Source: Inconstantimicrobium porci (GTDB lineage Bacteria > Bacillota > Clostridia > Clostridiales > Clostridiaceae). Taken from it: a DNA stretch of 64,000 bases. The stretch is taken from NCBI RefSeq assembly GCF_009696465.1, contig NZ_VULX01000008.1, positions 1 to 64,000 of the forward strand, given 5' to 3'. The first letter of the stretch is position 1, and every line of letters begins with the position of its first letter. Below, piece by piece: positions 651-36,184 of this stretch. A program made the position numbers and the translations under genes. The notes beneath the pieces were generated by a model. That model was not told where the DNA came from. It did no database searches and saw only the letters and a program-made list of their open reading frames with translations.

Positions 651-826
651 AAAATGCTCCTTTTAAATAAGTATTGATATTTCAGAGTGTTAATTTAATA
701 TTTACACTAATATACTGTGCTCAAAAATAAAAATGTTGGTAGATTTTATAAATAAATTATAAATAATTTTTACCAATAGGGGAAAACTATTTATAAAAAT
801 TAAGCATATGGAGAGAGGTGCTCTTA

Positions 827-9111: not shown

Positions 9112-9786
9112 TTATAGTTGTGAAAGCATTAATGCCCAGCTTTTGAACTTGTCTTGAAGATATTTTTGTATACGCTCATCCTCCTGACTGCCATCATGAG
9201 GTGTAGATATTGTTGTTATGCTTTCAATCCAATGTTGACCACCTTTAAACAAAGAATTTGTATTAATGCCTGTAGCTTGAATTTCATCTTTACTGCCTTC
9301 TTCAAGCAGTTGAGCTAGTAATCTGATAGTCTCTCCACCCATGCTATGACCAATCAAATGAACCTTTTGTATTTCTCCGTTTTTAGATTTCCCTAAATAT
9401 TTCAAAACTCCTTTGTATGTTTTTCCATATCTGTTATGACCAGCTTTAGATGAGTGAGCTTGTCCATAGTCAACGGTTCCTCCAATAAGGTAAGAGTATA
9501 ACTCACATGCTCTATCCCAGTTGCTTGATAGAGGGCCAATTGATGGAGTATAAACTTCGTAACCCTGGGTTTCCAGTATTTTTTTAATACTGTTTTTTCC
9601 GCCCCAGTAATTAAGGCCAAAGAATTCATCGTTTCCCCAACCAAACAAACCATGAACTAGTACTATGGGATATTTGTTCGTACGTATCAGCGTTTTTGCA
9701 GATGTGTTTTTTAGATTAAGTGGTGCTATAAATATAGAGAATAAAATAACTAGAAGTAAACAAAATGATTTTTTGAGTTTTTTCAC
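9112..9786 (-). CDS. Secreted family I.5-like lipase, C-terminally truncated
   Basis: 224 aa from a GTG at 9786 with AGGAGG upstream. Residues 1-30 form a signal peptide (KKLKK, hydrophobic core, NTSA-K). Oxyanion motif VHGLFGWG is at 44-51 and the nucleophile elbow GHSMGG at 146-151 (Ser148). The AHSSKAGHNRYGK segment at 110-122 resembles the zinc-binding histidine region of staphylococcal/Geobacillus lipases. After STPHDG at about residue 195 the protein runs only 29 more residues, while the family is usually near 400 aa with the catalytic Asp and His further on. Neither residue is present, so the product is probably inactive, a decaying gene. It converges on the glucan synthase terminator. 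Confidence 0.7.
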   Translation of the reverse strand: MKKLKKSFCLLLVILFSIFIAPLNLKNTSAKTLIRTNKYPIVLVHGLFGWGNDEFFGLNYWGGKNSIKKILETQGYEVYTPSIGPLSSNWDRACELYSYLIGGTVDYGQAHSSKAGHNRYGKTYKGVLKYLGKSKNGEIQKVHLIGHSMGGETIRLLAQLLEEGSKDEIQATGINTNSLFKGGQHWIESITTISTPHDGSQEDERIQKYLQDKFKSWALMLSQL

Positions 9787-9933
9787 AACAATTCCTCCTA
9801 AATTTATGGATATTATATATTTATTTGGTAGAGCAATAAAGTATACTTGTATACAAACTTGTGGTTAAGTGGATTGAGAATATGAGCTACAAAGACAATT
9901 TTGAAGAAATATAAAAAGAAAAGATGAAATTAG

Positions 9934-20563: not shown

Positions 20564-20592
20564 TTGACTTTACATTGTAAATTAAATATAAT
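20564..20592 (+). promoter_or_regulatory. Upstream promoter (P1) of the S-layer gene
   Basis: TTGACT at 20564-20569, 17-bp spacer, TATAAT at 20587-20592, about 185 bp before the start codon. With P2 below it makes a tandem pair, common for S-layer genes. The rest of the 350-bp gap (20427-20776) is AT-rich with no gene that I can support. Confidence 0.6.
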
Positions 20593-20654: not shown

Positions 20655-20683
20655 TTGAAATGAGAAAATAAATTATGTATAAT
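20655..20683 (+). promoter_or_regulatory. Downstream promoter (P2) of the S-layer gene
   Basis: TTGAAA at 20655-20660, 17-bp spacer, TATAAT at 20678-20683. A perfect TTGACA at 20642-20647 is 30 bp from the same -10 box and so is not used with it. The transcript would have a leader of about 85-90 nt before GTG 20777. Confidence 0.55.
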
Positions 20684-20776: not shown

Positions 20777-23470
20777 GTGAAAAAATCAACAAAAACACTT
20801 AGCGCAGCTGTTGCGGTAGCATCATTAGGTAACTTAGTTGTTCCTGCTGTTACAACATTTGCCGCTGAACAAAATACTACTGATGTAGAAGCATTAGTAA
20901 AAAAAGCTGAACAAACTAAACAAGGCAAAGGAATGTACAAAGCTTGGTTTGAAGCTCAAGAAGCAGTAATAAAAGCTGGACAAGGTGCTAAATACGCATC
21001 AAGATTATCAGCAGTTTATGATGCTATTCCTTATAAAGCTTTACTAAAAGAAATAGTTGATGGCATCATTTCAGTAGAGAAAGGCGAAGAGAGAACTGCT
21101 AGAAAGTACTATGAACTTGAACCAAAAGTAAACAAGATTCAAGAAGAATACAAAGATCAATGGGATAGAGATTTCGTAGGAAATGAACTTTATCGTTGGG
21201 CAGAGGTAATTCTACATAACGAAGATTATGCTCCAGTAGAAGAAGCTATCAAAGTAACATTACCAGCTTTACAAAAAGCAGAAGACTATGAAAAGATGGC
21301 ACAAGTTCTTGCTGATGTTCAGAAGAACATAGACAAGCTAACTGGTGACAACAAAGATTATGCAAATGAACAAGTTCAACCATATAAGGACTTAGTTGAA
21401 GAAAAATTATTTGCTAAAGTTGAATCAGTAAGTGCTATTAACGCTTCTGAATTAGTAGTTAATTTCAACAAAACTGTTGATGCAGCAACTGCTGAAGATT
21501 ATAGCAACTATGAATTAAAGGTTAATAATACTACTGTACAGTTAAATGATGCTGACTTCGAAATAGCAGCTAATGGAAAGCAAGTAACAATTCGTTTACA
21601 TGACTTAAAAACATTCCAGAAGGGTGACAGATACGTTGTTCAGACTAATGACGCTATAAAGACTACTTCAGGAAAGAAACTTGAAAAATTCGTATCAGAC
21701 GAAAAAACATTCAACGAAAGTGCAGCTCCAAAGCTAATATCAATAGGATACGCTAGTGCTACAGATTTAATAGTTGAATTTGATAGACCTATAGCTAAAA
21801 ACTTTACTATGTTAAAAGACAACGGAGTTGCTTTATCTATTTCTAAAATTGAACCTTTAGAAGGCGATTCTGATATTGGAGTTGCTGGTGATTATACTTA
21901 TAAAGTAACAACAACTGATGGAAAATTTGCAGATAAGGGTACTCACAATGTAACAATTTATGATGTTAAAGATACAGCTAAAGCTTTCGCAAGCAAAGCA
22001 AGCACATTAACAGGTTCATATACTATTAAAGATGCAAACGCAACAGCACCTAAGGTTGTTGATGTACAAGCAGTAAATGCAAATAGATTCTTCCTTCAGA
22101 CTAATGTAAAAGTAGATGATTTAACAAAATCTAAGTTAACATTATTAAAGGGAAATCATAAGTTTGCTAGCGCTAATGCAGATACAGTAAATGCTACTTC
22201 AAAGGCATTCTATACTGCTGGAACAAAAGATAATAAGCCTGGTATCTGGGTAGTAGTATCTGATGCAGTAGCAAGTGATGAAAACCCATTATACAGAAGT
22301 GATGAAACAACAGCAACTTTAACAGCTACATTAGAAAACTATGCAGCTGATGGACTTATCGGAGAAAAGACTACTAAGACTGTAACTTTAAACAAGAATA
22401 ATGCAAAGCCTGCCGTTAAAGAAACTGCTACAAATAAACTTAATAACACATTGACAGTTAAATTTGATAATGCTTTAACTGGATCAATAAATGTAAATGA
22501 TGTTGTTGTTAGGGATAAGGATGGAGTTATCAAGAACGCAACAGGTGCTGAGATAAGTGGTGATACTGCAACTATTACATTAGCTAATGTAAATGATGCA
22601 CCTTACACTGTTGAATTCAAGGCAGACAAATTCCAAAACGCAGTAGATGATACTAATGTTGCTACTTACTTAGTAAACACAGTAAAGAATAGCAAGATAA
22701 TAACTGCAATCAGAACTGCTCAGGGTAGCAACTTCAAATACAAAGAACTTGCATTAAATAAAGTAGATGCTAGTAATTTAGATGATGCCGCTGGTAATGT
22801 ATCAGTTACTAATAATGCAATAGATATATTCTTCGGTGCAAATACTGAAATGAGTAGTAGTGCACTTAATCCAGCTAACTACACACTTGATGGAAAGGCT
22901 CTTCCAGCTGGTTCAACAGTTGATTTCGTTGGAGATAAAAAACATGTAAGAATAACATTACCTGCTGAAACTTTAGTTGCATCAACAACTTATAGACTTA
23001 CTTTATCAAACAATATACAGACTGCAGCTGGTGAAAATTTAGTTGAAAGCTTACAGACTAAAGAAGGAACTCATATAGATCTTGATTTAACTGATAATGT
23101 TGCACCAACACTTAAATCTGCTAAGTATAGTCTTGCAGATCCTACAGCACCAATACTTTCAACAACTACTGCTAATAAGATTGAAGTAACATTCAGCGAA
23201 ACTTTAGCAACTATCGCAGAAGATACAGATGTTAACGAAGATGACTTCAAGATACTTGTAAATGGTTCAGAAATCGCAGTAACTGGAATAAAACAAGATC
23301 TTACAAAGAAGGAAAAGGTTACTCTTACATTAGGACAACCAATTAATGTTAGCCAGTCAGCTAGTATATCAATAGTTGCAGAAGCAAATGGAAAAGTAAT
23401 AAATACTACAGATGTTGCTGGTAACAAAGCAAGCACTAAGGTAACTATTAACGTTCCAACTTTAAAGTAA
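20777..23470 (+). CDS. S-layer protein, expressed copy
   Basis: 897 aa from GTG 20777 with AGGAGGG. Signal peptide with cleavage near TTFAA-EQ (residue 30). Residues about 35-215 are helical and charged with no SLH or CWB2 repeats, a likely cell-wall anchoring or assembly domain of another type. From residue 218 (VSAINASELVVNF) to the end there are repeated SbsA/Big_5-like Ig domains, with strands such as NKIEVTFSETLA, and no cysteines in what I read. Codon use is shifted to AAC, TTC, GCT and ATC compared with neighbouring genes, as for a very highly expressed protein. Tandem promoters and a strong terminator frame it. It faces a promoterless S-layer cassette (25359-28448), and the N-domain/Ig boundary carries a 12-bp repeat shared with that cassette. 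Confidence 0.85.
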   Translation: MKKSTKTLSAAVAVASLGNLVVPAVTTFAAEQNTTDVEALVKKAEQTKQGKGMYKAWFEAQEAVIKAGQGAKYASRLSAVYDAIPYKALLKEIVDGIISVEKGEERTARKYYELEPKVNKIQEEYKDQWDRDFVGNELYRWAEVILHNEDYAPVEEAIKVTLPALQKAEDYEKMAQVLADVQKNIDKLTGDNKDYANEQVQPYKDLVEEKLFAKVESVSAINASELVVNFNKTVDAATAEDYSNYELKVNNTTVQLNDADFEIAANGKQVTIRLHDLKTFQKGDRYVVQTNDAIKTTSGKKLEKFVSDEKTFNESAAPKLISIGYASATDLIVEFDRPIAKNFTMLKDNGVALSISKIEPLEGDSDIGVAGDYTYKVTTTDGKFADKGTHNVTIYDVKDTAKAFASKASTLTGSYTIKDANATAPKVVDVQAVNANRFFLQTNVKVDDLTKSKLTLLKGNHKFASANADTVNATSKAFYTAGTKDNKPGIWVVVSDAVASDENPLYRSDETTATLTATLENYAADGLIGEKTTKTVTLNKNNAKPAVKETATNKLNNTLTVKFDNALTGSINVNDVVVRDKDGVIKNATGAEISGDTATITLANVNDAPYTVEFKADKFQNAVDDTNVATYLVNTVKNSKIITAIRTAQGSNFKYKELALNKVDASNLDDAAGNVSVTNNAIDIFFGANTEMSSSALNPANYTLDGKALPAGSTVDFVGDKKHVRITLPAETLVASTTYRLTLSNNIQTAAGENLVESLQTKEGTHIDLDLTDNVAPTLKSAKYSLADPTAPILSTTTANKIEVTFSETLATIAEDTDVNEDDFKILVNGSEIAVTGIKQDLTKKEKVTLTLGQPINVSQSASISIVAEANGKVINTTDVAGNKASTKVTINVPTLK
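21429..21440 (+). repeat. 12-bp inverted repeat, slp copy
   Basis: TAAGTGCTATTA, identical to the complement of 28409-28420. It falls at the junction between the N-terminal domain and first Ig domain (codons 218-221) and is read in the same frame as the copy in the silent cassette. One mismatch later, CG also matches, giving 14 of 15. Confidence 0.7.
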
Positions 23471-23538
23471 TCTAAGACTTTAAAATAAATGTAGTTTCCT
23501 CGATTAAGGGAATTTACAAATAATGATTGATATTAGTG

Positions 23539-23574
23539 AAGAGAATCGATAGAAATATCGATTCTCTTTTTTTG
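23539..23574 (+). terminator. Strong Rho-independent terminator of the S-layer gene
   Basis: AAGAGAATCGATA, a short GAAA loop, and TATCGATTCTCTTTTTTT. Perfect stem with a long T run about 70 bp after the stop codon. Confidence 0.9.
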
Positions 23575-23585
23575 GTGTACCCATG

Positions 23586-23764
23586 CTGGGCACACCAAAA
23601 AAAGGCTACTGGAGAATTTCCAATAGAACTATCTTAAGCAAATCCTTAAACAACAAATGTATAAATGAATCCTTAGATTCTAATGAACCGCCGTATACCC
23701 AATTATACGTACGGTGGTGTGAGATGAGCTAAATAAAATAATTATTTAGCTCCTACTCGATTAT
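23586..23764 (+). mobile_element. Group II intron 3' remnant (RT tail plus domains V-VI)
   Basis: An open frame from about 23592 reads TPKKGYWRISNRTILSKSLN, the usual C-terminal end of an intron-encoded reverse transcriptase/maturase. It is followed by GAACCGCCGTAT...ATACGTACGGTGGTGTGAG (from 23683), the domain V-like hairpin characteristic of bacterial group II introns, and then a GAGCTAAATAA/TTATTTAGCTC stem (domain VI) ending in CTACTCGATTAT. The 5' part and most of the protein are absent, so it is an immobile fossil. Confidence 0.75.
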
Positions 23765-24215
23765 GCATAAATACTTTAGTGTAGCAAAAGATATTTTAGC
23801 ATACATTATAACTTTTAACAGACAAATATTTAAGAAAAAAGACAAGTCAATTTTTACACTTATCTTATATAGACAGAGTATGGCCTATGAACAACGCAAT
23901 TATAGAATAATACCAAGATTATCAGGTTGCACTCAAAAAAGCCTCTGAGAGCTTTTGGGCGCATTTCAAAGAATACCTTCTTTTAGATATAGATGTATGT
24001 TCAGATTAATTTGAGAGAATCAAGAATAGAATATTTGGTAAAGGTCTTTTAAAAACAAAAAGGGTGGTGTTGCATATAAATGTAAACATAATTATGTAAC
24101 TTTTTGATCATATAAAAATGTAGCATTAGCATTGAAGAGAAAATTAAATATATAAAATTATATCTTGATGGAAAAGATAGCATAAATCCATAATATAGAT
24201 AATTCAGCAGAATCA
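23765..24215 (+). pseudogene. Degraded transposase debris
   Basis: Around 23878-23970 the frames contain pieces such as PMNNAIIE and ASESFWAHFKE, which recall the C-terminal DDE part of IS3/IS150-type transposases (the region with the final catalytic Glu). There are many stops and frame changes, and no complete ORF. The remainder to 24215 is AT-rich and I recognise nothing further in it. Confidence 0.45.
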
Positions 24216-24217
24216 TT

Positions 24218-25330
24218 TTGGCAGTGGACACGAAATTATTATTAAATGAGATCGGAAGCTTTCAATATGAAAGGCTACAACAAATATCCTAGAGAACTTA
24301 AGTTACAAGCTGTAAGAGATTATTTATCTGTATTAAGTTCTCAAGATTATATTTACCGAAAGTATAAAATACGCTCAAAATCTAAATCACAAAAATGGAT
24401 TCTAATGTATAATAGTGATAATGAATTAAAATCTTTTGTACCGTCAGAAGCACTATTATGACTAAACGTAGATTTACTAAATATAATGAACGCATAGATA
24501 TCGTAAAGTATTGTATTTAGAATGATAAGAACTATGCTAAAACAGCAGAAAGATTTCAGATTTCTTATCAACAAATTTATAGGTGGATAAAAAATATGAA
24601 AATAACTGTGTTGAGGCACTATTAGTTAATCGTGGAAAGCGCAAGCTTGAAAATAATATGTCTTAAATTGAAAAGCTAAAGGCTAAAAATAAGCTGCTTG
24701 AAGCTGAGAATCGTAGGCAGCAAATGGAGATAGACTTTAAAAAAAATTAGAGGAGATAGAAAGGAGGAGATTTTAATCCAAGTAAAATATGAATCTATAT
24801 ATTTTACTATAAAGGAACTAAGTATGTTGAAAGCTTACCCTATTAAAGTTTTATGAGAATTTGCAGGTGTTTCACAAGCTGCTTATTATAAATGGGTAAA
24901 CCGTAAAGAAACTTTAGCTGAAAACATTTTAAATAGAGAGTTTAACTCTAATAAGCTTGGTTAAAAATTAATTACTGACGTAACTGAAATAAAATATGGT
25001 ACATTACAAAAAGTATATTTAAGTGTAATTTTAGATTTTTCTGACAAAAGTATTGTTTCTTTTGTGATAGGATATTATAACAATAATAATTTAGTATTTG
25101 AAATTTTTTATATAGCCCATCAGAAGCATCCAGATGCAAAGCAATAGTGGATTACATATATTATTACAATAATCAAAGATATCTAAAGAGGCTTAACTGT
25201 ATGAGTCCTCTAAGGTATAGGAGATATTAATTAAAATCTGTATTGTAAAAATATAGCTAACCGCAAACGCGATTAGCTATACAAATTATTTTTGCTTTTT
25301 ACTGTCTACTTGACAGGGAGCAGTTCACAG
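24218..25330 (+). pseudogene. Decayed IS3-family (IS150-like) insertion sequence
   Basis: Remnants of both ORFs in order. OrfA helix-turn-helix pieces: YNKYPRELKLQAVRDYL near 24270 and RFTKYNERIDIVKY...AKTAERFQISYQQIYRWIK near 24470-24590. OrfB pieces: VSQAAYYKWVNRK near 24870, LITDVTEIKYG...KVYLSVILDFSDKSIVSF near 24970-25065 (first catalytic Asp), and YYYNNQRYLKRLN...SPLRYRRY near 25155-25230. At least seven in-frame stops or shifts. Candidate ends are GGCAGTGGACACG at about 24220 and a TGTCTACTTGACAGGGAGCAGTTC end near 25303-25327. It lies between the two S-layer genes and cannot move on its own. Confidence 0.75.
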
Positions 25331-25358
25331 CTTGTATAATAGCCGCTTTTTAGTTTAA

Positions 25359-28300
25359 TTATTCAGCTATTACTGAGTCGTTTCCTGCATATATGTTATT
25401 AGCAGCATCTTTAATTAATGTTTGTCCAGCCTTTAATATTACTGAAGGATTAGTTGTAACTGATTCGCTTAATGTTACAGTTACTTTATTGTCTGATCCT
25501 GTAGCTGTTATTGATTCTATAGTATATCCTGGGATAGATAATACTTTAGCAATTGTATCAGAATCGCTGCTGCTTATTGTTTCGATATTTTCGCTGAATG
25601 TTAATTCTATTACCTTATCATTTGAGCCTGACTTTACAGCACTCTTAAGAACTGGAGCAGCTTTATCAGTTCTTGATGTAATAGTTAAAACTGTCGCTAA
25701 ATCTCCACCAAGTTTGTTTCCTGATAAATCAGCTATTGACTGCTTAGCAGCTATGCTTATTTCAGGTTGGAATGAAGTATCTTCATTTCCTTCAATTATT
25801 AGTGTTACAGTGTTAGCAGCATCGTTAGCTCCAACTGTTGCTTTCTTAACTGTTATATTAGAACCGTTTGTAACAACGAAATCTTCTTTGCTAACTGAGT
25901 TAGCATCTAACTTTTCGTTAAATGTAAGCACGATTGTTTCTGCAGATTTTAGTACAGCAGTAACGTTATCCTTATCTGGAGCAGTTAAATCTTTTCCTGT
26001 AAATAATGCAACTGCACTATTCATATCTAAAGTATTTGGAGTAACTTCTAAGTCTTTTATTATTGAAGCATCGCTAATGTATACTCTGTACTGTTTTCCA
26101 GCTATAGTAGATTTAGCAAGAGTTAATTTAATCTTATTGCTGTCATCTCCAGTTAAGCTTTCAGCGTTAGTAACTGATACAGATTCTCCAGTTACAGCAT
26201 CAGTAACAACAAATTTAGATTCCTGTCCTAAAGCTAAAGCCTGAATTTCTTCGCTGAATGTTAAGATAACTTCGTTATCTCTTTCACCCATAGCAGCTCC
26301 AGTCATAGCTGGTTTTATAGTATCAACAACACCCTTGAATGAAACTGCAGCATTAGATGCCTTGTTTCCAGCTAAGTCTGTAATATAGTTGCTAGTAGTT
26401 TCTTTAAGAGCAACTGTGTAAGTTTCTCCATTTTCGAAGATAGCTACTGCATTAGAAGATTCTTTGTTAGTTAATGTTATCTTTGAACCTGATACTGTTA
26501 TTTCAACATCATCGTTAAGTTCAACAACTTTATCACCCTTTTTGATTTCAAAGTTGTTCTTATCTAATGTTCCAACTTCTTTAAGTTCTTCTGATAATTC
26601 TATTTCTATAGAAGCACCATTCTTGCAAGTTACAGCGTTTATAACTGGAGCAGTCTTATCTTCTACTGCTGCAAAGTTCTTAGATACTGTATCAACTGTG
26701 TTTGTTGAAATTGAATTATCTTTAGCACCTGCAACTGTAATAGTGTATTCGCTTCCTTCTTTAAGTTCTGTAGCAGTAGTAACTCTTACTACCTTTTTGT
26801 TTGTAAGTATTTGTGAAGTACTTACACTTACTGCGTTTGCAGTTCCTTTTTCAACAATTGTAATAGTTCCAGCAGCTGACATTTCTTTGCTGAATTCAAG
26901 ATCTATTACATTTTTAGTCTTAGGAGTAACGTTGTTTAATACAGCTTTAACTTTATCAACACCTGTGAAGTCTTTTTCAGCCTTAGATGAATCTAAGTTT
27001 AATAAGTTAGCAACTTTAACAGTGTATTGCTTGTCTTTTTGAGCAGCAGTTGTTAATGTTACAGTTCTGTCTGATGAGTTGTAAACAGCCTTTGTTACTT
27101 GTAAAGCAGTTTTGGCATCATCTTTTTCTACTATTGAGTAGTTCTTTACATTTTCAGCTTCTTCTTTTATTAAATCCTGGTTGAATGTTAAAACTACAGT
27201 TTTTCCATCTTCTTTATCTCCAACTGGTTTTTCAGCAGATGATAATTCAACAGGAGTTATAACAGCATTAGTAGTAAACTTAACTATAGTGTTTGCAGCT
27301 ATTGTGTTAGCTATTATAGCAGTATCTTTTAATCCGTTTAATCTTATAGAGTAAAGAGTTTCTCCCTTTAATGCTGAGCTTAAGTTTAATTTAACAGACT
27401 TCTTATCTTCTGATACAGTAACTGAAGATATAGCATGAGTTAAGCCAGTTTCAGTTTCGAATAAAGCATAGTTTGATTCTGTATCTAAATTAGCCATTTC
27501 TTCGCTGAAGTTTATAGTTATAGTCTTGTTTTCTGCATCGTAAATAGGAGTTTCTACAACTGTTGGAGCAACAACATCTCTTACACCTGTAACTTTTATA
27601 GCCTGATTATCAGCTATAACATTACCTGATAAGTCTGCTCCGCCTGTAAGTGCAACATCATATACTTTTCCATCTTCTAAGTATTCTGAAGTATTGCTTA
27701 AAGTGATTACTACTTTATTTCCGTCCACTACTGCTTTATTAGTCTTAGCAGTATCTAAAGTACCATCTTCTTTAACAGCTTTTACTGTAGCAGTTACTGA
27801 TGTGCTAGTTAATTCCTTGCTCATTGTAACTTCGATTTTATTAGCATCGATAGCAACAGCGCTTACTATAACTGGTTTAACTGTATCTTCTATTGCTGTA
27901 AATATAACTGATGAACCAGCTGCACTCATAGTATTCTTATTAATAGATACGTCCTGCATTCCTTTTACCGTTAAAGTATACTTTGTATCTTTTGTAAGAG
28001 CATTAGCTAAAGTTAATCTTACTGTATCCTTGCCAGTAACTTTTATGCTTGCACCTGTCATGTTTACTGTATTTGCTGTGCCAGCTTCAACTAATGAGTA
28101 GTTTGAAATTAGCTGAGCTAAAGCTTCGTTTACGTTTTCTGAGAATTTAATTTCTATAATTCTATCTGATAGTGGCTTAACTGATTTAACTTCTGGTGCT
28201 TTGAAGTCGAATGCAGTATCTAAACCGTTTATTCTAAGGTTTCCTTCTTTATTCTTAAGAGAATCTATTGTAAGCTTGTACACTTTGTCAGAAACTTTTT

Positions 28301-28448
28301 CTACTTTAGAAACATTGATTGCTTTTCCATCAAGAGTTACTGATAAATTAGTAGCTGTTACTTCTGTTGCTGGAGTGTTTTTAAGTGTTACTGTAACAGT
28401 TGTTTCGGTAATAGCACTTAAAATGCCATAAAATTCGACAAATGGCAA
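25359..28448 (-). CDS. Silent S-layer Ig-domain cassette, no start or signal peptide
   Basis: An intact 1,029-codon frame of SbsA/Big_5-like Ig domains, about ten repeats with strands of the type VIELTFSENIE and periodic D(K/T)xAPV linkers. The only in-frame start is a TTG with no ribosome site, and an in-frame TAA lies 16 codons upstream. There is no signal peptide and no helical N-terminal domain. Homology to the expressed S-layer protein begins at ILSAITETTVTV (residues 9-20), matching VSAINASELVV at residue 218 of that protein. Codon use is biased to AAC, ATC and TTC as in the expressed gene, so the cassette has not decayed. It is read as a promoterless reservoir that needs joining to the expressed 5' end. 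Joining at the shared 12-bp repeat would be in frame and give about 1,237 aa. Confidence 0.75.
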   Translation of the reverse strand: MPFVEFYGILSAITETTVTVTLKNTPATEVTATNLSVTLDGKAINVSKVEKVSDKVYKLTIDSLKNKEGNLRINGLDTAFDFKAPEVKSVKPLSDRIIEIKFSENVNEALAQLISNYSLVEAGTANTVNMTGASIKVTGKDTVRLTLANALTKDTKYTLTVKGMQDVSINKNTMSAAGSSVIFTAIEDTVKPVIVSAVAIDANKIEVTMSKELTSTSVTATVKAVKEDGTLDTAKTNKAVVDGNKVVITLSNTSEYLEDGKVYDVALTGGADLSGNVIADNQAIKVTGVRDVVAPTVVETPIYDAENKTITINFSEEMANLDTESNYALFETETGLTHAISSVTVSEDKKSVKLNLSSALKGETLYSIRLNGLKDTAIIANTIAANTIVKFTTNAVITPVELSSAEKPVGDKEDGKTVVLTFNQDLIKEEAENVKNYSIVEKDDAKTALQVTKAVYNSSDRTVTLTTAAQKDKQYTVKVANLLNLDSSKAEKDFTGVDKVKAVLNNVTPKTKNVIDLEFSKEMSAAGTITIVEKGTANAVSVSTSQILTNKKVVRVTTATELKEGSEYTITVAGAKDNSISTNTVDTVSKNFAAVEDKTAPVINAVTCKNGASIEIELSEELKEVGTLDKNNFEIKKGDKVVELNDDVEITVSGSKITLTNKESSNAVAIFENGETYTVALKETTSNYITDLAGNKASNAAVSFKGVVDTIKPAMTGAAMGERDNEVILTFSEEIQALALGQESKFVVTDAVTGESVSVTNAESLTGDDSNKIKLTLAKSTIAGKQYRVYISDASIIKDLEVTPNTLDMNSAVALFTGKDLTAPDKDNVTAVLKSAETIVLTFNEKLDANSVSKEDFVVTNGSNITVKKATVGANDAANTVTLIIEGNEDTSFQPEISIAAKQSIADLSGNKLGGDLATVLTITSRTDKAAPVLKSAVKSGSNDKVIELTFSENIETISSSDSDTIAKVLSIPGYTIESITATGSDNKVTVTLSESVTTNPSVILKAGQTLIKDAANNIYAGNDSVIAE
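28409..28420 (-). repeat. 12-bp inverted repeat, cassette copy
   Basis: Reads TAAGTGCTATTA on the minus strand, identical to 21429-21440 on the plus strand. It lies at codons 10-13 of the cassette frame, at the start of its first Ig domain. Confidence 0.7.
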
Positions 28449-28702
28449 AAATGGACAAGCTAATAATATAAAGGTGTACAGGTGTTAGTGAAAAACATGA
28501 AGTTAATATCAACATTATAAATTAAAATTTTTATATAACATTATATAAATAATAATTAATTTATATTTAAATAAAAAATTAATATTTTAAAAAACAATTA
28601 AGTAACAATAATGACAAGCCTTTAAACAAGCCAATTACAAAAAATATGAAAAAATATATCATTGTTGTTATATTGCAATAGAATGTATATATTTTTTTTA
28701 AG
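28449..28702. other. AT-rich gap between silent cassette and recombinase gene
   Basis: Very AT-rich, no ORF with a ribosome site on either strand, and no promoter oriented toward the cassette that I can support. The absence of a minus-strand promoter plus ribosome site here is the main reason to call the cassette silent. Confidence 0.5.
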
Positions 28703-28731
28703 TTGACATTAAAAGAAAATACTAGTATTTT
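28703..28731 (+). promoter_or_regulatory. Promoter of the recombinase operon
   Basis: Perfect TTGACA at 28703-28708, 17-bp spacer, TATTTT at 28726-28731. The leader to ATG 28836 would be about 100 nt and includes an AAAGGGG that is rather far (15 nt) from the start. Confidence 0.55.
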
Positions 28732-28835
28732 ATACTTGTTATAGTTAAATATTAAAGTTTAATTAAAAATGTATATTAAAAACTTAAAATGGGTAAAATG
28801 TGTAAAGAGTATGAAAGGGGATAAAAAGTACAATA

Positions 28836-29693
28836 ATGTTACTACATGAAGTTATAAAAGAATTTGAATATTATCTTAAGATTAGTAATAAAAGTAACGA
28901 AACTATAACAGGATATTCAAAAGACATAAACGCTTTTGAAAAATTTGTGGAAGAAAAATACAATGGTCCTGTATATATAGAAGAAATAAAAATTCTTGAT
29001 ATTGAAGATTATCTTCATAGTTTGAAACTTAGAAAATTACAAAATTCAAGTATAAGCAGAAATCTATATACAATAAGATCATTTTGGAATTTTGCATATA
29101 AGAATAGATTTGCAAAAGAAAACATAGCTTCTTTTGTAGAAACAATTAAAGTCAAAAGGAAAGAAAGAGAATATCTTACTGAAGCAGAAGTGAAGGAACT
29201 TGTACATAATATTGATCATAAACTTATAAGTCTCGTAGTAGAAACACTTTTTTATAGTGGCATGAGAATAAGTGAATGCATAAATTTAAAAGTTAATGAT
29301 GTGGATTTTGATGATAAGGTTATAAGGGTTATTAATGGAAAAGGTGGCAAGGATAGAAATATTCCTATTAATAAAGATATTATAAATAAATTAAAGTATT
29401 ACAAAGATCATGAAAGACCTAATAAAAGTGATTATTTTTTCTGTACTGAAAAATCAGGAAGGCTAAGCGCACCATATATAAATAGGATTATTAATGATAC
29501 AGTTATTAATCTTGGCTGGAGTAAGCATGTAAGTGCACATATATTAAGACATAGTTTTGCGTCATGCCTTATAAAAAAGGGAGTAAATCTTGTACATGTT
29601 CAAAAACTTTTAGGACATTCAAACTTAAAAGTTACTTCAATATATACACATACAAATCTTGATGAATTAGCTCAATCCATAGATAAACTATAA
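28836..29693 (+). CDS. XerC/D-like tyrosine recombinase
   Basis: 285 aa. N-terminal SAM-like core-binding domain (residues about 1-95) and a catalytic domain with every expected residue: Arg144 (SGMRISE), Lys169 (NGKGGKDR), His235 and Arg238 (HILRHS), His261 (LLGHS) and nucleophile Tyr270 (SIYTH). It should cut and rejoin DNA at short specific sites. It is not next to phage or plasmid genes. It sits about 390 bp beyond the 5' end of the silent S-layer cassette and is co-transcribed (19-bp gap) with an HTH-repeat protein. By comparison with invertible surface-gene systems, a DNA-inversion role is plausible; a general Xer role cannot be excluded. Confidence 0.9.
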   Translation: MLLHEVIKEFEYYLKISNKSNETITGYSKDINAFEKFVEEKYNGPVYIEEIKILDIEDYLHSLKLRKLQNSSISRNLYTIRSFWNFAYKNRFAKENIASFVETIKVKRKEREYLTEAEVKELVHNIDHKLISLVVETLFYSGMRISECINLKVNDVDFDDKVIRVINGKGGKDRNIPINKDIINKLKYYKDHERPNKSDYFFCTEKSGRLSAPYINRIINDTVINLGWSKHVSAHILRHSFASCLIKKGVNLVHVQKLLGHSNLKVTSIYTHTNLDELAQSIDKL

Positions 29694-29712: not shown

Positions 29713-30525
29713 ATGCTTGATGAACAAAAATATAATGATTTAAAAGAACAGCATAATAATGATAATAAATATGATGATAAATTTGTATTATCAAAACTTA
29801 TGGAAGGTAATACAAGAGATGATATTGCCAAAATGCTTGGACATAAGAACTATCGCAGCATAGATATGTATATGAGAAGGAAAGGATATATATGGAATAG
29901 TGAAAAACAGTTATATGTCATTAAAGTATCTAGTGATTTTCAAGAAGACATACATGATATAAATAATGATAAGATACAGCGCATACTTACATATTTCAAT
30001 ATGGGAATGGATCCTATGGAGATTGCTAAGCGTATAGGTTTTAAAGACCATAAAGCAATGGCTGTTTATATGAAAGGAAAAGACTATGTATGGTCGTCTG
30101 AAAAGAATAATTATGTTTTAGATAGAGGGGTAAAGGATAGTCATACTTTGCGTTCGAATAATGAAGCAAGTGAAAGTTCTATATATAATAATGAAGAAAA
30201 AAATGAAAACACTAATTTTTCATCAATACCTGAAGAGATAGCTGAACTTCTTCCTATGCTTAAAATGATAAATAAAAATAAAGATAAGCTAGTGCAGATG
30301 CTTTCTATTGGTACTAATGGAACAATACCACGATATGTTATAGGCGGAATAGGAATTACGAAGTCTTTATGTATGTCACATCTTCTTTCTGAACTAGTAA
30401 AAGAATTCAGCAGAGAAAAAAATATAAGTCAGAGAGAGATATTTGAAGTAGCTATTGTTGAATTCCTTATGAAATATGGTTATGCAAATGAAGTTAATAT
30501 GCTTTTGAAAAAACATAATGATTAA
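29713..30525 (+). CDS. Putative DNA-binding protein with two HTH-like repeats
   Basis: 270 aa, unknown family. Two related units of about 50 residues occur at about 24-75 and 88-137. Each has a predicted helix-turn-helix (GNTRDDIAKMLGHKNYRSID and GMDPMEIAKRIGFKDHKAMA) followed by YMRRKGYIW-NSEKQLYV / YMKGKDYVW-SSEKNNYV. A charged Asn/Glu linker (about 140-175) leads to a helical C-terminal domain, perhaps for oligomerisation. GGGGATG ribosome site. It directly follows the recombinase gene, so it may be a directionality or regulatory partner. No catalytic motif seen. Confidence 0.6.
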   Translation: MLDEQKYNDLKEQHNNDNKYDDKFVLSKLMEGNTRDDIAKMLGHKNYRSIDMYMRRKGYIWNSEKQLYVIKVSSDFQEDIHDINNDKIQRILTYFNMGMDPMEIAKRIGFKDHKAMAVYMKGKDYVWSSEKNNYVLDRGVKDSHTLRSNNEASESSIYNNEEKNENTNFSSIPEEIAELLPMLKMINKNKDKLVQMLSIGTNGTIPRYVIGGIGITKSLCMSHLLSELVKEFSREKNISQREIFEVAIVEFLMKYGYANEVNMLLKKHND

Positions 30526-30595: not shown

Positions 30596-31375
30596 ATGAA
30601 TATTAATGATTTTAATATACATTATATAGATAATAGGAAACATAATGATTTATACGAGAAAGTAATCAAAGAATCTCTTCAAGATGTAACAATAAATGAG
30701 GGAGAAGTAAAGATTTATACAGTATTCATGGAAGAGGATGATGAAAAGGTTAAAGCTTCACTGATACTTTTAAATGCGGCTCCTTCAAAGATTAATTTTG
30801 AAAATATAGATATCATATTTAAAAATGAGCAGTCTGGAGATGCTGTTAATGAAAGCTGCGATTTCACGTTTGTTGGAATTTTACCATCAAACACAATTAC
30901 ACCATTTGAATTGGAATTTAATAAAGATGATTTTAGCAATATAAAATGTGATGTTAGTGAATTAAAAGCAGTATTTAATACAAAAATGACTGCACATGGC
31001 TCTGTAATAATATCAAATCTTGATGTAGCTGAAGATGTGAGATTTGAAGATAAAGTGCAGGCAAAGATGTATTTAAAGGGGTTAAAACCTCTGAAAAAAG
31101 ATTCTATAACAATTAACGCTTTTGATAAATATTTTTCGGGAAATACTATTATAGTGCCTATAATTGTTATGAATTCATATGATAAGAATGCAACAATTAA
31201 AGGTTTTTCAGTTGTATTAAAGGATGCTCTTGATAATGTTAGTGGTGTAAAAAAAGTAGACAGCCCTATTAGTGTAGCGGCTAAGTCAGCTTCTCTTGTT
31301 AATGTGATATTTGAATCAACTGATTTAAAAGATGCAATTAACACATACAAGTTCTGCACTGTTGCAATTTCTTAA
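30596..31375 (+). CDS. SLAP-domain S-layer assembly protein (accessory Sec)
   Basis: 259 aa from ATG 30596 (AGGAGGG six nt upstream; the TTG at 30578 is rejected). Two tandem domains of about 120 residues, LQDVTINEGEVKIYTVFMEE... and LKPLKKDSITINAFDKYFSG..., resemble the duplicated SLAP domain of accessory-Sec S-layer assembly proteins. No signal peptide, so cytosolic or membrane-associated. By family knowledge these proteins work with SecA2 to export S-layer proteins, and secA2 is 2.5 kb downstream while the S-layer gene is upstream. Family call from memory of the pattern, supported by context. Confidence 0.7.
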   Translation: MNINDFNIHYIDNRKHNDLYEKVIKESLQDVTINEGEVKIYTVFMEEDDEKVKASLILLNAAPSKINFENIDIIFKNEQSGDAVNESCDFTFVGILPSNTITPFELEFNKDDFSNIKCDVSELKAVFNTKMTAHGSVIISNLDVAEDVRFEDKVQAKMYLKGLKPLKKDSITINAFDKYFSGNTIIVPIIVMNSYDKNATIKGFSVVLKDALDNVSGVKKVDSPISVAAKSASLVNVIFESTDLKDAINTYKFCTVAIS

Positions 31376-31396
31376 TTTATTAGCATAGAATTTAGT

Positions 31397-31446
31397 GAGA
31401 CTGTATCACAACTAATTAGAAATTGTTGTATACAGTCTCTTTTTTG
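31397..31446 (+). terminator. Rho-independent terminator after the SLAP gene
   Basis: GAGACTGTAT-CACAAC paired with GTTG-TATACAGTCTC and followed by six or more Ts. Confidence 0.85.
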
Positions 31447-31595
31447 TGTAAAAAATTAATTATAGACTCATATAAAAAATGAATTGTTAATGTTGCAGTC
31501 AAATTTATCTGGTTTTATCGAGTACTTTTACTAAATATGCTAAATTTTATGTTAGAGTATAATTTTTGTAGGCAGGAAAATTTACAAAAAATAAA

Positions 31596-31615
31596 GGAGA
31601 TGTAAAAACATCTCC
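31596..31615. other. Short perfect hairpin before the ISLre2 fragment
   Basis: GGAGATGT-AAAA-ACATCTCC without a T run. It sits in the 300-bp stretch 31376-31676, which otherwise holds only the SLAP terminator and AT-rich sequence, probably the left part of the ISLre2 element. Confidence 0.4.
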
Positions 31616-31676
31616 ACAATACATAAATTATCCATTATAATTTAATTGTCGATATTAAATGAATGGAGCTGAGTTT

Positions 31677-32306
31677 ATGTATGATTTAAGTTTAAATGAA
31701 AAAGGAATAAGTTTCAAGGAGCTAGAGAAGAAAATTTATAAATATGCATGCGATACCGCTTGCGAATTAATGAAGTCAGTGTTGGAAACTTTAGATCAAA
31801 AGCTGATGGTTGAGAGAGATACTAAGCTGTATCGAAATAAGGGTATTAGAAAGACATGTGTTAAGACAATAATGGGTGATGTAGAGTATTCCAGAAGAAT
31901 ATACGAGATTAAACAGGATGATGGCAGAAAAGTTACTAAGTATTTGTTAGATGAATATTTAAATATGGACATTATAGGCAATATTTTAGTTAACCTTACA
32001 GAATCTATTTTAAACAATATTACAGAAGTTTCTTATAGAAAGACTTCTGATAACATAAAGAATAAAAGACTTTCAGAAACTGTTGATAAAATATATAAAA
32101 ATATAATTCCAGAGTCAGTATTAAGAGATGTTATTATTAATACACCGCTATCAGCTAAAAAAGTAGATGCTGGTAATAATAAACCTGATATTTATCCACT
32201 GAAGACTGCATCAATACCGTACAGCTCTGCTGCCGTAACACTAGGTCGAAAAGTAATACGAAATTTATGTGGATTAAAAGATTTTGGAGATTTATCATAT
32301 ACATAA
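31677..32306 (+). pseudogene. ISLre2-family transposase, internally deleted
   Basis: The first 130 or so residues (from MYDLSLNEKGISFKELEKKI, through ERDTKLYRNKGIRKTCVKTI and TKYLLDEYLNMD) match the N-terminus of ISLre2 (UPF0236) transposases, which are normally above 400 aa. The frame then passes into a short stretch ending GRKVIRNLCGLKDFGDLSYT, with the catalytic middle missing. The ATG at 31677 is preferred over 31659. It separates the SLAP gene from wzy and secA2. Confidence 0.7.
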
Positions 32307-32402
32307 AATAGATTTATAGGGAAGGGAAAAAATACAATTTATATGTAAAATAATGAATAATTAATAAAAAGTTTAAAAAGTTATATTTTTGCCAACATTT
32401 AC

Positions 32403-32437
32403 TTGACACAAACTTTTTATTATAGCTATGTTATAAT
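32403..32437 (+). promoter_or_regulatory. Promoter of the wzy-secA2 operon
   Basis: Perfect TTGACA at 32403-32408 with TATGTT at 32427-32432 (18-bp spacer) and an overlapping TATAAT at 32432-32437 (23 bp, too far for the same -35 box). About 55-60 bp before the first start codon. Confidence 0.5.
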
Positions 32438-32490
32438 ACGTAAAATTTTGCTATAATAAAGTGTATTAGCATAAACGGAAGGAGTATAAC

Positions 32491-33870
32491 ATGAAGTTAA
32501 TATTTAAGAAAGACTTGATTATATACATGCCATTTCTTTTGGCAGTATCAATGTTTTCAAAATATTCTTTAGTATATATACCATTTATATTAGTTCTCAT
32601 AAAAGATATTTATTTAATAAATAAGAAAAAAAATAATGTAGAGAAGTTTTTGTTTAAAAATCTTGTCTATTCTGTAATGCTTCCTGATAATTTTATAGTT
32701 ATATTTTTTACAGGATTGCTATTCCTTTATTTTGTAGTGTCATATTTAAGAAATAAAAAGAGATTAATTATAAACAAGAGCTTTATGATTATATTTATAT
32801 TGCTGATTTCAATGTTTATGATAAATATAGTTATCCATAGGGTTCCTATTAACAATATATTCTTGTATTTGATGTATAACTTTGTATTTGCTGTTGTACC
32901 TATTGTTTTTATGGCTTTTAATGTAGAAGAATATGAAACAATAGATAAAGCACTTAATACTGCTATAATAATGCAGGGAATATCTATACTGGCAGTGGTT
33001 ATATTTAATATTCATATTGTGATGGACAATCTTTTTGGAGATTGGAGTATAGGTACCATGGGTGTCAGTCAGGGAGTTCAGCTTTTTAGCTTGATGATTT
33101 TCACAGCAGTTAAGCTATTGTCAAAATATTTAAAGACAAAGCAATATGAATATCTAATATTTTTCATAATAGCTACTGTATTATCACTTTCAACTGTATC
33201 ACTTACAAATACAGCTATATTTTTTGTTTCAATTATAGCGTTCTTTGTAGTATACAAGCTTAATAGAAAAGTAAAATTGATGATGGTTGGAGTAATAGCA
33301 GTTTTAATGTGTATATTCTGGTTTGGTTCAGATCCTTTTGTAAGAGAACAGTTTACAAAAATCGCTTTTAACAGCGAATTCAGGGTAAGCAGGGTTAAAA
33401 AACTTGAAACATATGAAGATACATATATAAGTCTGCCTAAGAAAGATTTAAAGGCAGGGCTTATAGGTGTGGGAGCAGGTAATTATTCTTCAAGGGCTGC
33501 ACTTACAGCATCAGGATACTATACATCATGGTATAATTCTTCAAGATTTAAAACTAGTATAAATAAATATGCACGCAAATATATAAGACCTCGTATTTTT
33601 AGTAATATTGGAGTATCGCTTCTTGAAACACCAACTTCACAATATATAAGCATCATGGGTGAATATGGATATATAGGTGTGGCTGTTTTTGCAGCAATAG
33701 CAATATTGGTGTTTATAAAGAGCGGGGATTTTAATAAGCTTCTTATATTATATTTTTTAATGACATGCTTTTTTGATAACTATTTTGAATATCCTAAAAT
33801 AATGTTGACGATGTATTTGTGTTGCTTTATCATAAAAAAAGATAATGAGATAATGTGCGAGAATAGCTAG
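32491..33870 (+). CDS. O-antigen polymerase/ligase-like membrane protein (first copy)
   Basis: 459 aa, about ten or eleven hydrophobic helices with a large outward loop between residues about 285 and 385 (ends in LETPTSQYISIMGEYGYIGV), the layout of Wzy polymerases and WaaL ligases. In Gram-positive S-layer glycan clusters a WaaL-like protein moves the finished glycan onto the S-layer protein. Its position 13 bp before secA2, away from the main glycosyltransferase block, makes it my preferred candidate for that step; polymerase is the alternative. Confidence 0.75.
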   Translation: MKLIFKKDLIIYMPFLLAVSMFSKYSLVYIPFILVLIKDIYLINKKKNNVEKFLFKNLVYSVMLPDNFIVIFFTGLLFLYFVVSYLRNKKRLIINKSFMIIFILLISMFMINIVIHRVPINNIFLYLMYNFVFAVVPIVFMAFNVEEYETIDKALNTAIIMQGISILAVVIFNIHIVMDNLFGDWSIGTMGVSQGVQLFSLMIFTAVKLLSKYLKTKQYEYLIFFIIATVLSLSTVSLTNTAIFFVSIIAFFVVYKLNRKVKLMMVGVIAVLMCIFWFGSDPFVREQFTKIAFNSEFRVSRVKKLETYEDTYISLPKKDLKAGLIGVGAGNYSSRAALTASGYYTSWYNSSRFKTSINKYARKYIRPRIFSNIGVSLLETPTSQYISIMGEYGYIGVAVFAAIAILVFIKSGDFNKLLILYFLMTCFFDNYFEYPKIMLTMYLCCFIIKKDNEIMCENS

Positions 33871-33883
33871 AGGAGAGATTTAT

Positions 33884-36184
33884 ATGGCTTTTATAGATAA
33901 AATAATGAGCAAAGTTAATTCATCGGAAGTGAAAAAACTTTCAAAGACTGCAGACAAGGTTATTGCTCTTCAGAGTAAATATGAAGCAATGAGCGATGAA
34001 GAAATAAGAAAGTGCAGCAAAGATTTAAAAGAACGTGTTCAGAATGGAGAAAGTTTGGACAACGTTCTTGTTGAAGCATTTGCAATTGCAAGAGAAGCCG
34101 ATGCTAGAATACTTAAAAAAAGACCTTTTAAAGTTCAGATAATGGGAGGTATAGTTCTGCATCAGGGAAGAATAGCAGAAATGAAAACAGGAGAAGGAAA
34201 AACTCTTGTGGCAACTCTTCCTGCTTATCTTAATGCACTTAGTGGTAATGGTGTTCATGTAATCACAGTTAATGATTACCTGGCTAAAGTTGGTGCAGAA
34301 GAAATGAGCAAAGTTTATGAGTTTTTAGGACTTACTACGGGGGTTATTCTTCCTGATATGTCCAATGAGGATAAAAAGGATGCTTATAACTGTGATATTA
34401 CTTATGGTATAAACTCAGAATTTGGTTTTGACTACTTAAGAGATAACATGGTTAAATCTTATGATGAAAAAGTTCAGAGAGGATTTAATTTTTGTATAGT
34501 TGATGAAGTTGATTCAATTCTTATTGATGAAGCAAGAACTCCGCTAATAGTATCAGCTAAGGGGAAAAAGGCATCAGAACTTTATAAAATTGCAGATTAC
34601 TTTGTAAAAAGCTTAGATGAAGATGTTGATTATGAAGTAGATCACAAAACAAAAACTGTAATTCTTACTGAAGAAGGTGTAAGCAAAGCAGAAAAATATT
34701 ATAATGTAGAAAATTTCAGTGATCTTGAAAATTTTGCAATAAAGCATCATACTTATCAGGCTTTGAGAGCTAATTATATAATGACTAAGGAAGTTGATTA
34801 TATAGTAAGTGATAATGAAGTTTTAATTGTAGATGAGTTTACAGGAAGAGTTATGGATGGAAGAAGATTTTCTGATGGACTTCATGAAGCTATTGAAGCT
34901 AAAGAAGGACTTCAGCAAAAAGAAGAAAGCCGTACAATGGCATCTATAACTTATCAGAATTTCTTTAAAATGTACAAGAAACTTTCAGGTATGACTGGTA
35001 CTGCTAAAACAGAAGAATATGAATTTAATGAAATTTTCAATCTTGATGTAGTTGTAATTCCTACTAATAAACCTATTGCCAGAGTAGATAATAAGGATGT
35101 TCTTTATGCTACTGAATATGATAAGTTTAAGGCTGTAGTAGAAGAAATAAAAAAGACACATGAAAGTGGACAACCAGTACTTGTGGGCACTACTTCTATA
35201 GACAAATCTGAGCTCTTATCTTTTATGCTTAAGAGAGCTGGTATACATCATACAGTGCTTAATGCAAAATATCATGAAAAAGAAGCTAAGATTGTTGCTA
35301 AGGCTGGACAAAAGGGTGCAGTTACAATAGCTACTAATATGGCTGGACGTGGTACTGATATACTTCTTGGTGAAGGTGTAACTGAACTTGGAGGATTAAA
35401 AGTAATAGGTACTGAAAGACATGATTCTCAGAGGATAGACAATCAGCTTAGAGGACGTTCTGGAAGACAGGGAGATGTAGGAGAATCAATTTTCTACTTA
35501 TCATTAGAAGATGATCTTCTTAAGAATCATATGTCTGAGAGTGATAAAAACTATTTCGAAAAGAAGAAGAAGAACTTTGAAGATGGGAAACCAATAATAC
35601 TTCCTAATGTTCAGAAAGCAATTAATCATGCTCAAAAAGCTGTCGAGAGTGATAACTTTGAAACAAGAAAGAACCTTATTAAGTATGATAATGTCACAAG
35701 TAAGCAGATGGAAGTATTGTATGAGCAGAGAGATCTTGTGCTTAAGAGTGACAATTTAAAAGATAAAATTTTATCTATGGCTGACGATGTTATCATAGAT
35801 AACACTGCTAAGGAACAAAAGGATACAATTAGTGCTCTTAATGGTATTTTTGATATGGAGTATGATAAAGATCCTGAAGATAGTATGACAACAATATGTA
35901 AGTGGTACAAAGAGAAGTTTAAGGAAAACGTAGATAAAAAAGAAGAAGAAATGCCAGAGAGATTTAATGAAATAATACGAACTGCTCTTATTACTATCAT
36001 AGATGATGTATGGGTGGATCATCTTCAGTCTATAGAACATTTAAAACAGTATATTGTATTAAAGCAGTATAAGCAGATGGATCCTGCACAGGCTTTCATG
36101 ATAGAAGGTGCAGATATGTTTAAGGAATCAATGCTAAATATTAAAAAAGATATTGTTATGTTTGTAAGCAGTATGAAGTTATAA
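33884..36184 (+). CDS. secA2: Accessory preprotein translocase ATPase SecA2
   Basis: 766 aa, shorter than a housekeeping SecA because it ends at KKDIVMFVSSMKL without the linker and cysteine zinc-binding tail. Walker A MKTGEGKTLVATLPAYL near residue 100, DEVDSILIDEARTPLI near 205, helicase motif ATNMAGRGTDILLG near 483, and GRSGRQGD near 522. It is an ATP-driven motor that pushes selected preproteins through SecYEG. In firmicutes with S-layers, SecA2 plus SLAP proteins serves S-layer export. GAGGAGAG ribosome site; same operon as the upstream membrane protein. Confidence 0.9.
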   Translation: MAFIDKIMSKVNSSEVKKLSKTADKVIALQSKYEAMSDEEIRKCSKDLKERVQNGESLDNVLVEAFAIAREADARILKKRPFKVQIMGGIVLHQGRIAEMKTGEGKTLVATLPAYLNALSGNGVHVITVNDYLAKVGAEEMSKVYEFLGLTTGVILPDMSNEDKKDAYNCDITYGINSEFGFDYLRDNMVKSYDEKVQRGFNFCIVDEVDSILIDEARTPLIVSAKGKKASELYKIADYFVKSLDEDVDYEVDHKTKTVILTEEGVSKAEKYYNVENFSDLENFAIKHHTYQALRANYIMTKEVDYIVSDNEVLIVDEFTGRVMDGRRFSDGLHEAIEAKEGLQQKEESRTMASITYQNFFKMYKKLSGMTGTAKTEEYEFNEIFNLDVVVIPTNKPIARVDNKDVLYATEYDKFKAVVEEIKKTHESGQPVLVGTTSIDKSELLSFMLKRAGIHHTVLNAKYHEKEAKIVAKAGQKGAVTIATNMAGRGTDILLGEGVTELGGLKVIGTERHDSQRIDNQLRGRSGRQGDVGESIFYLSLEDDLLKNHMSESDKNYFEKKKKNFEDGKPIILPNVQKAINHAQKAVESDNFETRKNLIKYDNVTSKQMEVLYEQRDLVLKSDNLKDKILSMADDVIIDNTAKEQKDTISALNGIFDMEYDKDPEDSMTTICKWYKEKFKENVDKKEEEMPERFNEIIRTALITIIDDVWVDHLQSIEHLKQYIVLKQYKQMDPAQAFMIEGADMFKESMLNIKKDIVMFVSSMKL

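Follow-up and report, generated by a model that had tools for sequence, protein, structure and literature searches.

An S-layer-type gene and an inverted silent cassette beside a recombinase gene

The window, that is, the whole stretch of 64,000 nucleotides analyzed here (Inconstantimicrobium porci, RefSeq assembly GCF_009696465.1, contig NZ_VULX01000008.1, positions 1 to 64,000 of the forward strand), contains a candidate invertible surface-layer (S-layer) locus, in which an expressed S-layer-type gene, slp, faces a promoterless cassette and a tyrosine recombinase gene lies just outside. A preliminary description of this DNA had proposed such a switch, and the gene positions that it gave all hold. 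The locus comprises the following features (aa, amino acids; ORF, open reading frame; Ig, immunoglobulin; N-part and C-part, N-terminal and C-terminal parts):

20777-23470, + strand: slp, S-layer-type gene; ORF of 897 aa with a GTG start
21429-21440, + strand: core site in slp, TAAGTGCTATTA; boundary of N-part and C-part, identical to the cassette core and in the same frame
21429-28420: predicted invertible segment of 6,992 bp; in-silico inversion preserves the frame
25359-28420, - strand: silent promoterless cassette; 1,019 codons counted from the core, six Big_5 Ig-like stretches
28409-28420, - strand: core site at the cassette start, TAAGTGCTATTA; inverted relative to the slp copy
28836-29693, + strand: Xer-like tyrosine recombinase of 285 aa, just outside the segment; Phage_integrase E=2e-40
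29713-30525, + strand: partner gene of 270 aa, directly downstream of the recombinase; tandem winged-helix-like domains

The slp product is laid out as a signal peptide and constant N-part (residues 1-218), followed by a variable Ig-like C-part in which a SWM_repeat match falls slightly below the curated cut-off. Among the signals ascribed to slp in the preliminary description, the ribosome site (AGGAGGG) precedes the gene, the signal peptide was recognised by eye, and two sigma-70-like promoter matches (each 11/12) lie upstream at 20564-20592 and 20655-20683; the latter are weak evidence alone because the promoter scan found 9 matches against 4.7 +/- 2.0 expected. As to the putative anchor domain, neither Pfam nor NCBIfam gave a match to residues 1-218, and this part has no relative among the 206 other genomes of our comparison set, which comprised 207 genomes of the same family, one per species. 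The product may form an S-layer; it has a signal peptide, Ig-like domains and SLAP- and SecA2-like neighbors, and no recognised anchor domain. No second copy of the slp N-part was found in the genome itself or in the family; a 53-bp slp match at 9769-9821, considered as such a copy, proved to belong to a lipase-like gene, where it covers the ribosome site and the beginning of the signal peptide.

On the opposite strand, the cassette ORF spans 25359-28448, and its frame remains open beyond the first start codon, up to 28484. No ribosome-site match and no signal peptide were found at its 5' end, in agreement with the earlier portrayal of an intact Ig-domain frame devoid of start signals, and homology to slp begins at the core, the homologous boundary at which the cassette had been said to start. 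Its closest relatives in the 207 genomes are only the silent cassettes of G140 and G145, which align from the core onward. The earlier suggestion that the rest of the genome might hold further cassettes was followed by a search for more copies of this one, which found none; two more core-like 14-mers occur there (contigs C22 and C67), neither starting a long cassette nor lying within an slp gene. One might read the cassette as a gene that is decaying, or that is expressed on its own, and the core as a mere conserved protein motif, given that VSAIN is a recurrent start of Ig domains and that the cassette is preceded by weak promoter-like matches (10 found against 5.2 expected, both strands). 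We find this barely credible: the 1,019-codon frame is intact and lacks a ribosome site and signal peptide, related cassettes are under purifying selection, and cassettes in many genera begin exactly at the core, with synonymous positions fixed.

The preliminary description named no crossover sequence; the predicted crossover core is TAAGTGCTATTA. Flipping the 6,992 bp in silico gives an intact frame, slp up to the core and cassette after it, of exactly the 1,237 aa foreseen for an inversion of about 7 kb fusing slp residues 1-218 to the cassette. Long inverted repeats around the segment were sought and rejected, as the repeat search gave only a 15-bp, 93% boundary pair that was later explained as the core. 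The longest exact match common to slp and cassette at the boundary is 12 bp, which bears on the idea that related Ig-domain genes exchange sequence by homologous recombination or gene conversion and that the recombinase only happens to lie nearby. Modularity and common motifs among S-layer C-parts speak for it, and the Campylobacter fetus sap system does work by homology, but so short a stretch of common DNA, the tracking of cassettes by recombinase and partner pairs across genera, and the retention of the core at synonymous positions make this account highly improbable.

The recombinase and its winged-helix partner

The claim of a complete tyrosine recombinase outside the cassette is borne out by a Phage_integrase domain and a catalytically complete set of six residues (R144, K169, H235, R238, H261 and Y270), which are invariant in 18 homologues. 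Assignment as a housekeeping XerC or XerD fails against the NCBIfam equivalog cut-offs (213.7 vs 335 bits for XerC, 208.6 vs 330 for XerD), and a scan of genome contigs using the recombinase returned one distant match.

The partner has no Pfam or NCBIfam match. In its AlphaFold2 model, residues 22-70 and residues 83-136 form winged-helix-like domains in tandem (pLDDT near 90), and the C-part is helical and poorly modelled; the fold found no match among PDB structures. In PHROGs the protein corresponds to phrog_2727, of unknown function, and no homologues were found in annotated phages. Homologues occur in 18/207 family genomes, the window's counted, and in nearly all of these the partner directly follows a relative of the window recombinase (43-63% identity). 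Co-occurrence and the modelled fold together make it a probable recombination accessory or directionality factor.

Core sites and cassettes recur across the family

Start-less, signal-less Ig-domain frames also adjoin recombinase and partner pairs in other genomes. These cassettes open with T[A/T]AGTGCTATTA or a near variant, read in the frame Ser/Cys-Ala-Ile, and vary in sequence farther downstream. Another copy of the core is found, nearly always on the same contig, within a signal-peptide gene with an N-part of 120-353 aa. Alignment of 13 expressed and 19 silent sites revealed an invariant GTGC-ATTA with one variable position, and left flanks that differ by class: GTTnnnTCAGTA at expressed sites and TTTGGnAATATA at silent sites of the window's clade. 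The core thus described appears to resemble the sites of Xer-type recombinases, TAA and TTA enclosing an overlap of 6 bp, GTGCTA. In G074 both partner sites carry the variant overlap GTGCGA, which is what a homology-dependent crossover would require. None of the 33 other Ser-Ala-Ile tripeptides in the same loci uses the core codons, where codon usage would give about 5%; this is support rather than a blind test, because the core itself served to distinguish the sites.

In the recombinase clade to which the window belongs (support 0.99), the expressed and the silent core have opposite orientations in 11/11 genomes (the window and 10 others), at spacings of 7 to 47 kb. As a control, the 64 listed genomes without the pair yielded one inverted 14-mer pair within 40 kb, which was not an slp/cassette pair.

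Silent cassettes are intact across roughly 650-1,300 codons, two of them running beyond the examined stretch, and their substitution ratios (dN/dS, nonsynonymous to synonymous) indicate that they are under purifying selection, with values between silent cassettes (0.26-0.57) similar to or below those between expressed pairs (0.56-0.64). G141 and G145 have N-parts with 93.5% identity and DNA around the locus that is mostly 86-96% identical, but between their cassettes no relationship is left, starting about 35 bp beyond the core and lasting until roughly the cassette end. A silent C-part of G098 matches the expressed C-parts of G127 (59% over 960 aa) and G105 (51%), from which it follows that in the course of evolution C-parts move from silent to expressed positions or the reverse.

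Some loci are more elaborate. G096:C8:138861-185806 and G098:C61:74085-112707 each hold one inverted and two direct modules with a single expressed gene in common, an arrangement offering several alternative C-parts per locus, and the direct modules of G096 contain primase/helicase and extra integrase genes. G079:C29 (L060, L102, L103) has several signal-peptide genes in tandem that contain the core, beside a recombinase with an interrupted frame and a cassette with the variant core AGTGCCATTG.

Direct cores flank a prophage in a related clade

Direct orientation of the cores prevails in other recombinase clades, as in G096 (two modules), G098 (two), G074 and G104, with G127 inverted. In G104:C44:4023-44835 (L055, L109, L110), the direct cores enclose a prophage of 40.8 kb, which is lodged within an S-layer-type gene of 995 aa; the frame of this gene is still open. 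PHROGs matches identify tape measure, tail, holin and endolysin genes, terminase- and portal-like genes were recognised by eye, and the integrase is a relative of the window recombinase. On lysogeny, this prophage may replace the C-part of the host coat protein; judged from the flanks of the sites, the new C-part may come from the phage itself. Among the viral records compared, G210 was tried as a provirus with clean attL/attR attachment sites and rejected, its first site resembling another cassette flank and not an slp N-part.

These cases raise the alternative that the recombinase chiefly serves to insert elements at S-layer cores and to excise them, each bringing a replacement C-part, and that the window cassette is a stranded, non-flipping remnant. 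Related recombinases do flank direct cores in G104, G096, G098 and G074, but in the window's clade every core pair is inverted and the window recombinase lies outside the segment, no phage genes are evident between the window's two cores, and the cassettes remain intact and selected; we therefore regard this account as unlikely for the window.

A probable reversible S-layer switch

In-frame inverted cores, an adjacent recombinase, recurrence throughout the clade and purifying selection on the cassettes all fit an invertible S-layer switch, and we consider it very likely that the locus is a reversible S-layer variation switch driven by recombinase-mediated inversion. Several observations weigh against this. 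The shared core is just 12 bp and overlaps the common Ig-domain motif VSAIN, and 4/60 codon-shuffled slp genes also give a shared 12-mer, so that within the window the match is only mildly improbable. The direct cores around integrated elements in other clades imply that integration, not inversion, is the activity there. No flipped molecule was seen among the genomes compared, one per species. As a shared 12-mer in two Ig-domain genes is by itself only mildly surprising, the case rests on comparison, and it is the recurrence in other genomes that gives the TAAGTGCTATTA core its significance.

We infer that the window recombinase acts on these two cores in cells. Probably aided by the partner, it would recombine the two inverted copies of TAAGTGCTATTA, with crossover at the predicted 6-bp GTGCTA, and flip the 6,992 bp between the slp core and the cassette core, so that promoter, signal peptide and N-part would be joined in frame to the other C-part. 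The displaced C-part would become the silent cassette; all that precedes the slp core, namely the promoter, the ribosome site, the signal peptide and the N-part, would stay where it is, and cells in one population would show one of two S-layer proteins.

Related recombinase pairs at Rhs and flagellin genes

The window system is part of a wider family of recombinase pairs that includes those of prophages. On a plasmid of Haliovirga abyssi (Fusobacteriota; NZ_AP027060.1, L125, 4877-24346), units of replication gene, recombinase and partner stand in tandem beside rhs, and behind each complete pair follows a promoterless Rhs C-tip starting at a YVDPSG boundary; this boundary is conserved and is also found in the intact rhs gene of Haliovirga abyssi. 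In the viral record IMGVR_UViG_2582581267_000004 (L117, 9091-12015), a phage recombinase and partner are directly followed by a flagellin gene without the usual first residues, as if the phage integrated near the flagellin start. The Rhs and flagellin cases, less well tested than the S-layer case, suggest a general in-frame 3'-exchange system. Another locus (L058, in G115) holds a partner gene with just the last 48 recombinase codons, followed by Rhs C-terminal fragments.

We think it rather probable that the recombinase and tandem winged-helix pair constitute an undescribed family of in-frame C-terminal exchange systems. Clostridial prophages would use it to integrate in S-layer genes at a 6-bp overlap and to replace the outward half of the host coat protein on lysogeny, and other branches would target flagellin and Rhs toxin tips. 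In one clade, domestication together with inversion of the sites would have produced a reversible S-layer switch.

Comparison with known switches

In the R64 shufflon, the Rci recombinase, encoded in the locus, inverts C-terminal segments of PilV at 19-bp sfx sites. As proposed for the window locus, a constant N-part is thereby joined in frame to alternative C-parts, encoded by 3' coding segments, through inversion. The shufflon has several segments, the 19-bp sfx sites and a pilus tip adhesin; the window locus differs in having one segment, a 12-bp core TAAGTGCTATTA distinct from sfx, an S-layer-type protein and a winged-helix partner.

The mycoplasma vsa locus is served by the HvsR recombinase, and we know of no winged-helix partner in either vsa or the comparable vpma. 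The vpma recombinase is Xer1 (PMC5634654). Both systems share with the window locus a locus-encoded Xer-type recombinase, one expression site, and silent surface-protein genes activated by site-specific inversion, but they involve many-copy lipoprotein families in mycoplasmas and a different site.

In Campylobacter fetus sap, one promoter serves many silent S-layer cassettes via inversion, which relies on long shared homology and RecA; the window locus is not of this type because it lacks long homology, with 12 bp in common. For the Lactobacillus acidophilus slp segment, the recombinase is, to our knowledge, not encoded beside it. That segment is the invertible slpA/slpB unit, as cited in a later article (Boot 1996, cited in PMC6015585). 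There, too, the invertible segment has an expressed S-layer gene on one side and, facing it, a silent gene that lacks a promoter, but the exchange takes place near the 5' end, whereas in the window locus it would occur after about 220 codons and with a dedicated recombinase pair. The preliminary description had drawn its analogy to these two systems; the L. acidophilus topology is indeed present, but the mechanism appears nearer to the R64 shufflon and mycoplasma vsa/vpma than to either.

Clostridioides difficile cwpV is switched ON/OFF by RecV, a distant recombinase, via a 195-bp leader between 21-bp repeats (PMC2784873). As proposed for the window locus, control of a clostridial cell-wall protein there depends on inversion by a tyrosine recombinase of the Xer family, but at the window locus one of two proteins would always be expressed and the recombinase gene lies next to the segment. 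The literature searched, outside which most subscription papers lay, yielded no description of a clostridial S-layer switch with its own dedicated recombinase.

S-layers form the outermost surface of clostridia and are often their phage receptor. If the switch is real, a dedicated in-frame swap of the exposed half would explain the fast diversification of S-layer C-parts. The recombinase system is present in at least 11 clostridial species and apparently shared with phages integrating at the same spot. Long reads from any source can be examined for its defined core, which makes clostridial S-layer variation directly testable, and the partner, hitherto a phage protein family without an assigned function, gains a testable role.

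Neighboring genes and minor observations

Three further features lie within the locus or beside it:

23538-23569, + strand: terminator-like stem-loop behind slp
30596-31375, + strand: SLAP-domain protein resembling an accessory-Sec S-layer assembly protein; TIGR04398 E=2e-20, above cut-off
33884-36184, + strand: SecA2-like translocase; SecA family matches

The SLAP-domain protein also matches TIGR04399, under its cut-off, and SecA2 models match the translocase strongly, yet under their equivalog cut-offs. By their predicted products, these two genes (within 30596-36184) fit an accessory-Sec S-layer export locus. A truncated ISLre2/UPF0236-type transposase remnant (31659-32306) lies between the SLAP gene and the next genes, and the interval at 24.2-25.3 kb, inside the predicted invertible segment, resembles degenerate transposase sequence, as judged by eye. 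Farther upstream, at 818-9004, the window encodes a 2,728-aa protein with GH94 and glycoamylase domains, of the cyclic beta-glucan synthase type.

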